In this document: positions 24,772-28,577 of the stretch, piece after piece
Numbering within the stretch: the first letter of the stretch is position 1
Layout of the letters: each line of letters starts with the position of its first letter
Source: Thermaurantimonas aggregans
GTDB lineage: Bacteria > Bacteroidota > Bacteroidia > Flavobacteriales > Schleiferiaceae
Reading direction: 5' to 3'
Assembly (NCBI RefSeq): GCF_003851885.1
Contig: NZ_BHZE01000016.1
Location: 1 to 61,271 of the forward strand
DNA length: 61,271 nucleotides
Notes under the pieces: generated by a model
The model's input: only the letters and a program-made list of their open reading frames with translations
The model's database searches: none
What the model was told of the DNA's origin: nothing
Translations under genes and position numbers: made by a program

Positions 24772-26178
24772 TTAAGGTCGTTGATAAATCTTGGTAGCGT
24801 CGCGATAACCCGTCAAGTTTAAATACCAATCTGGGAATAAAACGCCGTTACTTATTGCCCATTGGCTAAATTTCAGATAAGCGCTGGTTATGGGAGTCTT
24901 TTCGATGGGATAATCAAACGTTCCTGGAATATGGATAGCCCACGGAAGGTTCTGCTTGTTCTTATAGTATCTACCTGCTCCAGGATTTGAATCATCGTCA
25001 CCAGTGCCAAATAAGGTCATATTCGCAAGAGAAGTAGGAGCTTTGTCTGGTAAGTGTATTTCCCGACCCCGTGTCAGATTAGAGAAAATAAACGGATTGA
25101 AACCAGCAAGATTTAGTTGGGCCAGCGTGTATAAAGGGGTACTAAATGTGATTTCAACCGTCAGTGTTTGTGGTTCGCGATACACAGTCCCCGGAGTTGT
25201 GTTTACGCCAATTGCCCCCTGGCCTGGATGAGGCATAATGGCATAAGCATTATCAAATACAATTACAGTGGGAATGCTTTGTCCGGCTTCAAGGCCATTA
25301 GGGGTAAGATTAACAATATTTTCAGTGAGTTGATATCCCGATATAGTAATCAAACTTTGATTTATTGATGAATTGCCAAACTGAAAACCAAATCCGTTTT
25401 TGAAGCCAGCACCAAAAGCTTTAAGTTTAAAAGTAGCAATTAGATCTTTTACCTTATTCTGACTGTTTGTGATAGCGTTAAACTTATACTCAATTACCAT
25501 ATCATTGAAATCATAATCGCCATTAAAAGGCCAAAGATCTTCATAAGCAAGTGTACCTTGAGCGGCAACGGAAGAGAAAGCTCTATCGGGATCTGTAGGA
25601 TATTCATCTTGTCCATCAGGTACGCCATCGCCATCAGTATCGGCAGGTGCCGGTGTGCATCCTGTTCCGTTACAATTCATCACATAAGTGAAATCAGCCA
25701 CGGAGAAGTTAACGATTTGTCCACTACTACCTGCTTTGGCTGATACGCGTTGATTTTGTAAAGAAGTGAGCGTATAAGTAATTCGAAGTAAACCTGCTCT
25801 ACCTCCACCTATTTTTTTTGTATTATCAAACTTAAAACCTTGGAAAGGATCAGAGCCGAGGTTGGGCCCCATTACCAAATTCCCTCCTGTCATACTCCCT
25901 GAAAGTACCTGCAAGCTAATGTTAGAATACGTACCCGGTGCAGCTTCGATTGACAAGTGAGAAAGTTCTTTACACTTTGGTCCGCCACAGCCATTGTGAG
26001 AAACGTGCAGAACAATAGTGTAAGTGTTGTTAGGATTACAAACGACAGAACTTATCGTGGTTGAGAATCCACCCCCGTTAATTTTTGTAATTTCACAAGC
26101 CGCAGATTGAGCATTTGAGGTTACTGCGTATGTTAAAAAAGAAAGAGCAAATGATACTTTCTTAATAAATGATTTCAT
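24772..26178 (-). CDS. Secreted LruC-domain protein with Ca-binding repeat
   Basis: A 468-residue exported protein with a signal peptide (residues 1-23, ending NAQS). A Cys-containing N-terminal domain follows (CGGPKCKELS near residue 60). Next comes a thrombospondin type 3-like calcium loop DTDGDGVPDGQDEYPTDPDR near 180, then the LruC domain (YEDLWPFNGDYDFNDMVIEY and the long beta-rich rest). LruC proteins are surface or lipoprotein-associated; molecular function is unknown. No T9SS tail is seen. It lies 7 bp downstream of the small lipoprotein and forms an operon with it. Confidence 0.8.
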   Translation of the reverse strand: MKSFIKKVSFALSFLTYAVTSNAQSAACEITKINGGGFSTTISSVVCNPNNTYTIVLHVSHNGCGGPKCKELSHLSIEAAPGTYSNISLQVLSGSMTGGNLVMGPNLGSDPFQGFKFDNTKKIGGGRAGLLRITYTLTSLQNQRVSAKAGSSGQIVNFSVADFTYVMNCNGTGCTPAPADTDGDGVPDGQDEYPTDPDRAFSSVAAQGTLAYEDLWPFNGDYDFNDMVIEYKFNAITNSQNKVKDLIATFKLKAFGAGFKNGFGFQFGNSSINQSLITISGYQLTENIVNLTPNGLEAGQSIPTVIVFDNAYAIMPHPGQGAIGVNTTPGTVYREPQTLTVEITFSTPLYTLAQLNLAGFNPFIFSNLTRGREIHLPDKAPTSLANMTLFGTGDDDSNPGAGRYYKNKQNLPWAIHIPGTFDYPIEKTPITSAYLKFSQWAISNGVLFPDWYLNLTGYRDATKIYQRP

Positions 26179-26185
26179 GGGATGT

Positions 26186-26545
26186 TTAATTTAAGGTGAA
26201 TTGGATATTTGTATTGTCTAGAGAGATTTCATAGCTGTTGCCTAAAAATTCAGCTTTTACCGTTTTTTGGTGAGCTGGAAGTTGGAGTATTGTTTTATAT
26301 CCCACGTTTTTAGTCAGCATTGCTTGATGAAGGATGTTTCCATCCATATCTTTAATTTTCAAAACAGAATTTGCATAGCCGATGATTTCTATTTCATAAG
26401 TTTTTGCTGCATTCCAATCAAAATGGTTACCTACTTTCAATTCTTTGATATCTACAGGTTCGGTAGGTATTTGCATTTTTTCCTCCTTATTACAGCTCGA
26501 TAAAATTGAGCCAGCAGCTATTAAGACTAAAACAACTTTTTTCAT
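26186..26545 (-). CDS. Small lipoprotein
   Basis: A 119-residue protein with a type II signal peptide (MKKVVLVLIAAGSILSSC, lipobox LSSC, Cys18). The mature part is about 100 residues and beta-rich (DWNAAKTYEIEIIGYANSVL). Acidic and charged residues after the Cys do not let me decide surface versus periplasm. It is first in a two-gene operon with the LruC protein, a pairing that suggests a shared surface structure. Family not recognised. Confidence 0.7.
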   Translation of the reverse strand: MKKVVLVLIAAGSILSSCNKEEKMQIPTEPVDIKELKVGNHFDWNAAKTYEIEIIGYANSVLKIKDMDGNILHQAMLTKNVGYKTILQLPAHQKTVKAEFLGNSYEISLDNTNIQFTLN

Positions 26546-26885: not shown

Positions 26886-28577
26886 ATGGCAGTCTCAGAA
26901 TACAGTAATTGGAAAATGCCTTATACACCAGACGAAAAGTACTCAAAGCGAGTAGCCTACTTTTCCATGGAATTTGCCATCGATCAAAGCCTTAAAATAT
27001 ACAGTGGCGGCCTGGGCTTTTTGTCAGGCTCACATATGCGCTCGGCATACAACCTCAAACAAAATTTAATAGGTATAGGAATCCTCTGGAAATATGGATA
27101 TTACGATCAAAACAGAAATCACGACCAAACCCTAAGAGTAGATTTTATTGAAAAAAACTACACCTTTTTAGAAGATACAGGAATTGTAGTAGATGTACAA
27201 ATCTTCGACAACCCCCATGTTAAGGTAAAAGCCCTTGTTTTAAGACCAGAAATTTTTAAAACCGTACCTATTTATCTGTTAACCACTGATATGGACGACA
27301 ACGACCATCTCTCCCGTACCATCACCCATCGCCTGTACGACGACAATGAATTTACTCGAGTAGCACAAAGCATTGTTCTTGGGCAAGGTGGAGCGAAAGT
27401 AGTAGAAGCATTAGGCGGGGCTGACATCTATCACCTCAACGAAGGGCATGCTCTTCCGGCATTTACCTATTTGTATGGAAAAGCAAAAGACAAAGAAGCC
27501 GTAAAAAGGCAATTTGTCTTCACCACGCACACACCTGAACAGGCTGGGAATGAAGAGCGATCTTTAGAGTTACTTCAAAAAATAAACTTTTTCCCAAATT
27601 GGAACAAAGCAGAAATTGAAAAAATTACGCACCAAACACCCGGTAGGGTAAATTACACCCTTACAGCCCTGCGATTAGCCAAAAAAGCCAACGCCGTAAG
27701 CAAACTGCATGGCGAAGTTTCGCGCGAAATGTGGAAAAACTACCAAGATATTTGTGAGATCGACCACATCACCAATGCTCAGAGTCTGTCATACTGGGGC
27801 GATAAACCCATGCAAGAAGCCTTAGAAGCCGATGATTATCAAGCCATCGTAACCCGTAAAAAAGAGCTGAAGCACAATCTCTTCAAAGTCGTGGCCGACC
27901 AAACAGGCAAACTCTTCGATCCGGAAGTAGTGACCATCGTATGGGCACGCCGATTTGCAGCATACAAAAGGCCAAATCTGATCTTTAGAGAGATGGAGCC
28001 ATTTATGGAACTGTTAAACAACAAAAAATATCCGGTGCAAATCATCTGGGCTGGTAAACCCTACCCTACTGATTACAATGCGATCGAGATTTTTAATCGC
28101 ATTGTTCACTTGACCAAGCAACTTCCCAATGCCTGTATTCTCACAGGGTATGAACTTGCCCTATCGCGCATACTCAAAAATGGCACCGATGTATGGCTCA
28201 ACACTCCTCGAAAACCGCGTGAAGCATCAGGTACCAGCGGCATGACTGCGGCTATGAACGGAGCCGTTAATTTTTCAATAAATGATGGTTGGATGGTAGA
28301 ATTTGGAAAACATCGGCACAACTGTTATTTGATACCCGATACTACAGCACCGGGAATTGTTGACATTCAAGACAAAGAGGATTTTGAAAATCTTTACAAG
28401 GTTTTAAACAACGAATTACTCCCCGACTTTTACGACGGAAAAGGCATGTGGAAAAAGATTATGATGAACTCTATGAAAGAGGTTTTAACCTACTTTAGAT
28501 CTATCAGAATGGCCGACGAATACTACTCAAAACTCTACTTATACGAACCTGCATCGAAAAAAAAGACTTCCAAATAG
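26886..28577 (+). CDS. Alpha-glucan family phosphorylase (GT35), atypical PLP site
   Basis: A 563-residue GT35-like protein related to the short phosphorylases of Thermus/Thermotoga type, which release glucose-1-phosphate from glycogen. Seen are the N-terminal segment RVAYFSMEFAIDQSLKIYSGG, the HLNEGHALPAF region near residue 180, TTHTPEQAGNE, and the C-terminal SGTSGMTAAMNGAVNFSINDG. In canonical enzymes this last motif reads SGTSGMKAAxNG or GTGNMK, where the Lys binds the pyridoxal phosphate. Here residue 454 is Thr (codon ACT, 28245). The enzyme may therefore be PLP-independent, inactive or changed in reaction. Monocistronic. Confidence 0.82.
   Translation: MAVSEYSNWKMPYTPDEKYSKRVAYFSMEFAIDQSLKIYSGGLGFLSGSHMRSAYNLKQNLIGIGILWKYGYYDQNRNHDQTLRVDFIEKNYTFLEDTGIVVDVQIFDNPHVKVKALVLRPEIFKTVPIYLLTTDMDDNDHLSRTITHRLYDDNEFTRVAQSIVLGQGGAKVVEALGGADIYHLNEGHALPAFTYLYGKAKDKEAVKRQFVFTTHTPEQAGNEERSLELLQKINFFPNWNKAEIEKITHQTPGRVNYTLTALRLAKKANAVSKLHGEVSREMWKNYQDICEIDHITNAQSLSYWGDKPMQEALEADDYQAIVTRKKELKHNLFKVVADQTGKLFDPEVVTIVWARRFAAYKRPNLIFREMEPFMELLNNKKYPVQIIWAGKPYPTDYNAIEIFNRIVHLTKQLPNACILTGYELALSRILKNGTDVWLNTPRKPREASGTSGMTAAMNGAVNFSINDGWMVEFGKHRHNCYLIPDTTAPGIVDIQDKEDFENLYKVLNNELLPDFYDGKGMWKKIMMNSMKEVLTYFRSIRMADEYYSKLYLYEPASKKKTSK

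Follow-up and report, generated by a model that had tools for sequence, protein, structure and literature searches.

A conserved GT35 subfamily in Bacteroidota without the PLP-binding lysine

The alpha-glucan phosphorylase homologue of Thermaurantimonas aggregans belongs, with near certainty, to a monophyletic and strongly conserved GT35 subfamily in which the PLP-binding lysine has disappeared, most simply through a single loss, and which has been kept as a functional protein. Its gene is located on contig NZ_BHZE01000016.1, the whole stretch of 61,271 nucleotides analyzed here being referred to as the window. As a tentative reading of its function, we consider that the protein has stayed a retaining alpha-1,4-glucan phosphorylase, which would use storage glucan as its substrate and work without covalently bound PLP; the substrate, the direction of the reaction and the absence of PLP are all points that we infer.

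GT35 is described as consisting exclusively of phosphorylases and, among phosphorylases, the requirement for PLP as unique to this family (PMC4336185). In E. coli MalP, PLP sits on K646 (PMC11046441). A preceding sequence-only reading of the window had assumed that all GT35 enzymes use PLP, in agreement with both reviews. Among the open-licence papers searched, none was listed as describing a GT35 without the lysine or without PLP. Either the rule that GT35 needs PLP has an exception, or the glgP annotations name the wrong reaction, and modelling of glycogen breakdown in these bacteria is affected. The lysine-less clade represents a natural system to study the contribution of PLP and the question whether nucleotide sugars can be taken up again at this site.

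A GT35 protein with threonine at the PLP-lysine position

Re-reading of the ORF and of the codon upheld the coordinates and the residue number of the sequence-only reading; the frame starts with ATG and has exactly the boundaries given in Table 1. In its catalytic-loop motif, the window protein reads EASGTSGMTAAMNGAVN (also given as EASGTSGMTAAMNG), with Thr at the PLP-lysine position. Its best sequence match in the PDB, the Segatella copri glycogen phosphorylase 9l6i (28-31% identity), reads SGTSGEKAEMNG, the lysine of which pairs with Thr454.

Table 1. Features of the GT35 gene and protein, with positions counted from the first letter of the window
Feature	Position	Strand	Basis
CDS, 563 aa, homologue of alpha-glucan phosphorylases derived from GT35 (TIGR02094), PLP lysine absent	26886..28577	+	ORF and profile match
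N185, E186, H188, active-site motif common to lysine-bearing relatives	27438..27449	+	alignment
His215, conserved in clade and lysine-bearing group	27528..27530	+	alignment
R356 to K361, conserved Arg/Lys pair	27951..27968	+	aligned with R295/K300 of GT5 synthases
G421-Y422-E423, conserved Tyr flanked by clade-specific G and E	28146..28154	+	alignment
E446-T454, EASGTSGMT, catalytic-loop motif	28221..28247	+	E446 aligns with GT5 glutamate of EPCG
Codon ACT, Thr454, PLP-lysine position (E446+8)	28245..28247	+	alignment
Clade-specific motif-segment residues E218, Q299, V352, W353, P392, Y393, G421, E423, K431, F473			

By descent, the protein belongs to GT35/TIGR02094. It scored 426.9 bits against NCBIfam TIGR02094 (alpha-glucan family phosphorylase, cut-off 191.7) and 60.1 against Pfam Phosphorylase PF00343 (cut-off 27), did not reach the classical phosphorylase model TIGR02093 (53.1 bits versus a cut-off of 552.9), and, of the N-terminal DUF3417 region, matched no more than a short end. 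None of the GT5 and GT4 models was matched in the Pfam and NCBIfam scans, and no match to the GT3 glycogen synthase model PF05693 was listed. The earlier impression of an otherwise intact protein is borne out by the TIGR02094 score and by the AlphaFold2 model (pLDDT 91.7, pTM 0.91). Since the lysine test fails, classification among the PLP-dependent glycogen phosphorylases (EC 2.4.1.1) would be inappropriate. A promoter and terminator scan yielded nothing in excess of shuffled sequence.

Compared with known systems, TIGR02094 (more_P_ylases) enzymes such as 9l6i resemble the clade in descent, GT-B fold and catalytic residues bar the lysine, whereas the clade lacks the PLP lysine, has its own motif residues and shows the short DUF3417 end. 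Classical GT35 enzymes (TIGR02093), e.g., MalP 1l5v, share the fold and active-site plan of the window protein, which is however shorter and carries Thr instead of Lys. The GT5/GT4 enzymes (GlgA, 2qzs) are similar to the clade in size, GT-B fold, catalytic Glu, Arg/Lys pair and G-Y motif, but their family models, like those of GT3, do not recognize the window protein. A precedent in concept for retaining phosphorolysis outside GT35, and thus without the cofactor described as unique to that family, is the retaining trehalose phosphorylase included in GT4 (PMC8950772 and PMC4336185), which is from another family with another substrate and is likened here by description.

Distribution and origin of the lysine-less clade

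The PLP-lysine site was read in 120 clade loci, giving Thr in 113, Ser in five, Ala in two and Lys in none. These comprise 110 aligned loci (T 104, S 4, A 2, K 0), namely the window, 29 loci from a phylum genome collection and 80 from named genome records, as well as ten further loci (L144-L147, L165, L166, L175-L178; T 9, S 1, K 0). A few loci (L013/L070 and L015/L074) stem from the same genomes present in both collections, and 73 of the 110 loci were left once near-duplicates had been removed by an 85% identity filter. Together with the pairing of Thr454 to the 9l6i lysine, these counts confirm that the PLP lysine is missing; they also answer the question whether Thr variants are common in Bacteroidota, which the sequence-only reading had raised as a possibility and which turned out to be correct. 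With lysine absent in 120 loci, a sequencing or assembly error as the cause is ruled out.

Searching 296 genomes from the phylum brought up a distinct group of proteins of about 550-575 aa (600-737 bits, 51-60% identity), confined to the window's own order or class, and the best match outside this group (334 bits) has the lysine. At least 80 clade loci were found in the scan of named genomes. The matches listed include the genera Schleiferia, Pontibacter, Rufibacter, Maribacter, Winogradskyella, Zobellia, Chryseobacterium, Algoriphagus and others, as well as the families Chitinophagaceae and Saprospiraceae; no record titled as Bacteroidales appeared among them. Schleiferia thermophila is the closest relative among the matches listed (80% identity). 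Within 159 genomes of the class, 15 carried the lysine-less type, 14 the lysine-bearing type, none both and 130 neither, the site having been read in all 29 carriers. The lysine-less type is also found on plasmids of Pontibacter actiniarum and Runella rosea, both copies being annotated as glgP. For this plasmid sample, ten of 33 records with a match were fetched, and the motif was not found in one of them (L172).

Two of the records call for a remark. The Algoriphagus formosus locus (L061, 10001-10283) matches over the whole protein and yet seems to have its frame interrupted toward the 5' end; it was used unaltered. Another record (L106) is titled as a Sphingomonadales MAG, which is probably wrong because its neighborhood matches that of a Chitinophagaceae locus (L101).

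Outside the clade, lysine was present in all 19 readable outgroup TIGR02094 proteins (20 loci were fetched, L122 giving no readable GT35), in nine of nine classical GT35 proteins read, and in seven of eight plasmid-borne GT35 proteins from Chlamydiota, Pseudomonadota, Cyanobacteriota, Deinococcota and Bacteroidales, the eighth being unread. An IQ-TREE phylogeny rooted on the classical GT35 was calculated from 37 clade sequences (34 of 72 representatives drawn at random, the window and two plasmid copies), 29 lysine-bearing and nine classical sequences; L161/L126 and L162/L113 are each the same gene. The lysine-less clade was monophyletic (support 100, stem 1.02), with a lysine-bearing protein of 574 aa (L113) as its sister (support 98). 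Since the clade is nested among lysine-bearing enzymes, the lysine was lost, most simply in one event. The rooted tree gives no support to an ancestral PLP-free relic, the lysine-less state being derived.

Conservation and co-changed residues

That the protein is under selection, as had been supposed, is reflected by dN/dS values of 0.011-0.048 in 11 close pairs, which are rough values since dS exceeded 1 in nine of them; 12 pairs were considered and the window-Schleiferia pair was left out as saturated. With an intact ORF and dN/dS of 0.01-0.05, a local pseudogene is ruled out. A large part of the active site is conserved in the clade as well as in the lysine-bearing set, including G41, G42, N185, E186, H188, T214, H215, N297, W304, R355, R356, Y360, K361, K391, Y422, E446, S448, G449 and T450. 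Among these, we assign E446 as the catalytic Glu and R356/K361 as the Arg/Lys pair which we take to bind phosphate, in keeping with the alignment with GT5. His215 is presumed to correspond to His377 of glycogen phosphorylase (numbering of the rabbit enzyme).

These conserved positions bear on the question of a non-catalytic glucan-binding or regulatory protein. Such a role might be suspected from the loss of the cofactor-binding residue and from the solitary position of most gene copies. Pseudo-enzymes usually lose catalytic residues, however, and here the catalytic Glu, the Arg/Lys pair and the His are conserved under a dN/dS of 0.01-0.05, making this role very improbable. Of the three options put forward in the sequence-only reading, the regulatory pseudo-enzyme is consequently disfavored, whereas PLP-free catalysis and another reaction are both still candidates.

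The difference to the lysine-bearing relatives goes beyond the single position. At 27 of 544 comparable sites, at least 95% of the clade share one residue that never occurs in the 19 outgroup proteins, and ten of these sites (last row of Table 1) fall within the 86 sites of the catalytic-motif segments (Fisher p 0.005, the segments being hand-picked). The lysine-bearing sister L113 has the clade residue at none of the ten; therefore, those changes share a branch with the loss of the lysine. In addition, the position of W470 is occupied by I, V, M or L in the clade. Gly421 was found in 106 of 110 clade loci, compared with N or D in all 19 lysine-bearing outgroup proteins; across positions 421-423, the lysine-bearing relatives read N/D-Y-D/N/S and GT5 reads G-Y-D. 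As conserved lysines of its own, the clade has K90, K325 and K431. In the AlphaFold2 model, helix 450-457 carries T454 in its second turn, and K431 is close to the end of helix 424-433. Judged from Rossmann topology, K431 would face away from the site, and none of the three lysines appears to be an obvious replacement.

An ordinary phosphorylase could also bind PLP non-covalently, with no Schiff base and with the phosphate-binding part of the site kept. This would fit the conservation of G41, G42, W304, R355, K361, Y422 and T450, which we equate with the PLP contacts of glycogen phosphorylase. It would also fit the part of the PLP phosphate as acid/base in ordinary enzymes (PMC11046441). Nevertheless, we regard it as improbable because the mere loss of an anchor needs no joint changes of the kind seen at Q299, V352, W353, P392, Y393, G421, E423 and F473 (in at least 95% of the members) and also at W470.

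Similarity to nucleotide-sugar transferases

In its sequence profile, the clade is shifted toward NDP-sugar transferases. A clade profile of 54 sequences (the window protein plus 53 of the 79 sequences from named loci) was compared with an alignment of GT5-type synthases consisting of four sequences only, and gave a probability of 94.6 (E 6.5e-8) over 438 columns; the lysine-bearing profile reached 39.6 (E 3e-4) against the same alignment. In a Pfam scan with E up to 10, Glycos_transf_1 was matched by 21 of 54 clade versus one of 19 lysine-bearing proteins, Glyco_transf_5 by 31 versus one, and Glyco_trans_1_4 by 16 versus none listed, these being counts over related sequences and thus no independent trials. 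In the GT5 alignment, E446, R356, K361 and G421-Y422 pair with the catalytic Glu, the Arg/Lys pair and the G-Y motif, respectively.

Structural comparison of the AlphaFold2 model by VIA-align resulted in Z 34.9 for 9l6i (rmsd 2.7, 541 residues), Z 32.2 for E. coli MalP 1l5v (539 residues) and Z 31.1 for E. coli glycogen synthase 2qzs (442 of 477 residues). Related GT-B folds align with each other, so that the predicted fold alone does not discriminate between phosphorylase and synthase; the folding covered the lysine-less window protein.

The motif changes together with the profile similarity favor occupation of the former PLP site by a nucleotide sugar. In the resulting main alternative to a phosphorylase, a nucleotide fills this site and the protein is an NDP-glucose-dependent alpha-glucosyltransferase, like GT5/GT3 glycogen synthase or with another acceptor; in other words, a GT35 that again uses nucleotide sugars, as most GT-B enzymes do. 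The clade profile being nearer to GT5, the more frequent glycosyltransferase matches, Gly421, which replaces N/D and restores the G-Y of GT5, and the alignment of the model with 2qzs all argue in its favor. It is in line as well with a proposed proto-GT35 in which a nucleoside monophosphate gave way to PLP (PMC11046441), and if true, it would allow this idea of a former exchange of nucleotide for PLP in the fold to be tested in nature. On the other hand, the Glyco_transf_5 matches that were read are below the cut-off and located in the N-terminal, acceptor-side half rather than in the nucleotide-binding one, the window protein has no such match, the GT5 comparison depends on four sequences, and the rooted tree renders the lysine-less state derived instead of an ancestral relic. 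Considering in addition the genome data below, we judge this alternative as possible but somewhat less likely than the phosphorylase.

Genome setting, gene neighborhoods and proposed reaction

The window genome (2.67 Mb, 57 contigs, 99.93% complete) encodes one GT35 only. It further contains GlgB (887 bits), a GT3 glycogen synthase as a separate gene (605 bits), GlgE (155 bits, PF11896) and, at 82% identity, a counterpart of the putative maltokinase gene of Schleiferia, and lacks a GlgC above the cut-off (76.9 versus 424.9). Extension to 56 genomes revealed 33 with the lysine-less type, three with the lysine-bearing type, none with both and 20 without any GT35. Hence, the clade member is the sole GT35 in 33 of 33 carriers, and a second, lysine-bearing GT35 was found in none of them. 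By chance, co-occurrence would be expected about 1.8 times in these 56 genomes and 1.3 times in the 159 genomes of the class, i.e., the zero overlap is not significant alone.

A dedicated route of glycogen synthesis is present in 30 of the 33 carriers, represented by GlgC in 23 (at least 415 bits, two just below the cut-off) and by GT3 in seven. A full-length GT5 accompanies GlgC in 22 of these 23, the exception being G118 with a shorter GlgM-like gene. In the other three carriers (G076, G111, G194), which have neither GlgC nor GT3, a weakly matching GT5-like gene (433-464 aa) is all that was seen. GlgB exceeded the cut-off in 28 of 33 carriers. Given that the synthesis route already exists in 30 of 33 genomes, the slot left unfilled is that of a phosphorylase. 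This counts against an NDP-glucose-dependent transferase, and the clade protein as the missing glycogen synthase is rejected as a general explanation. Specificity for the GlgE pathway was not apparent either, with GlgE in eight of 33 carriers and in four of 20 genomes without GT35 (no clear association).

The gene neighborhoods contribute in part. In two Flavobacteriaceae MAGs (L037, L043), the lysine-less gene is located in an operon-like run with a GlgM-type synthase, GlgC, GlgE, GlgB and a GH31 glucosidase, and in Schleiferia thermophila (L033) a gene for a putative maltokinase is found 0.6 kb downstream (TIGR02457, 337.9 bits, below the cut-off of 375). On the Pontibacter plasmid, a type II GAPDH and a DUF1622 gene precede the lysine-less gene, and one or the other of these also occurs near lysine-bearing copies in L170, L168 and L116. 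Similarly, a phosphoketolase lies 0.7 kb from a lysine-less gene (L152) and adjoins a lysine-bearing copy in L167. Neighborhoods in common with lysine-bearing phosphorylases, which suggest the same role and thereby speak against the transferase alternative, thus rest on two clade copies. Most other copies, including that of the window, have no glycogen genes nearby, and when the GlgM, GlgC, GlgE, GlgB and GH31 proteins of L037 were used as queries against 89 loci, relatives came up in only two, and some of these relatives were short.

Based on the functional slot and the neighborhoods in common with lysine-bearing copies, we favor phosphorolysis without covalent PLP. In such a mechanism, the site formed by Arg356/Lys361 and the glycine loop, which is retained, would take up inorganic phosphate, while the proton transfer normally done by the PLP phosphate would fall to side chains in the remodelled pocket. 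A second phosphate may perhaps sit at the former place of the PLP phosphate. Against a phosphorylase it has to be considered that the changes exceed one substitution and that the profile is shifted toward NDP-sugar transferases, which favors the transferase alternative. Furthermore, most copies are solitary and a phosphorylase is not obligatory, because GlgB exceeds the cut-off in 17 of the 20 genomes that lack a GT35.

Regarding the surroundings of the gene, two opposite-strand genes (468 and 119 aa) are located upstream of the GT35 gene at positions 24775-26545 of the window. The same gene order is found in Schleiferia (L033:8130-9657; 386 and 118 aa), with N-termini similar to those of the window pair, and this kept order suggests a vertically inherited place. 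A different arrangement was seen on the Runella plasmid (L166:11642-12079) and in genome G190 (L147:8600-9037), where a Pyridox_ox_2 gene (pyridoxamine-5'-phosphate-oxidase family) lies approximately 30 bp downstream of the lysine-less GT35, a curious neighbor for an enzyme whose PLP anchor is gone. The two Pyridox_ox_2 copies are 94.5% identical, and together with the GT35 gene they are possibly a transferred pair.

The genomes also encode a short protein (roughly 260-400 aa, mostly 270-290) with an N-terminal GT5 domain only, e.g., at G000:C9:3591-4169 outside the window, which was found even in genomes without GlgC and GlgB (G029, G053). This protein is already known: a fragment of the GT5 gene kept in Bacteroidetes is mentioned, with no function given, in PMC11046441. 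Finally, frames of 1337-1360 aa in four genomes (G395, G365, G332, G422) contain a lysine-bearing TIGR02094-like phosphorylase and are possibly fusions with another enzyme.
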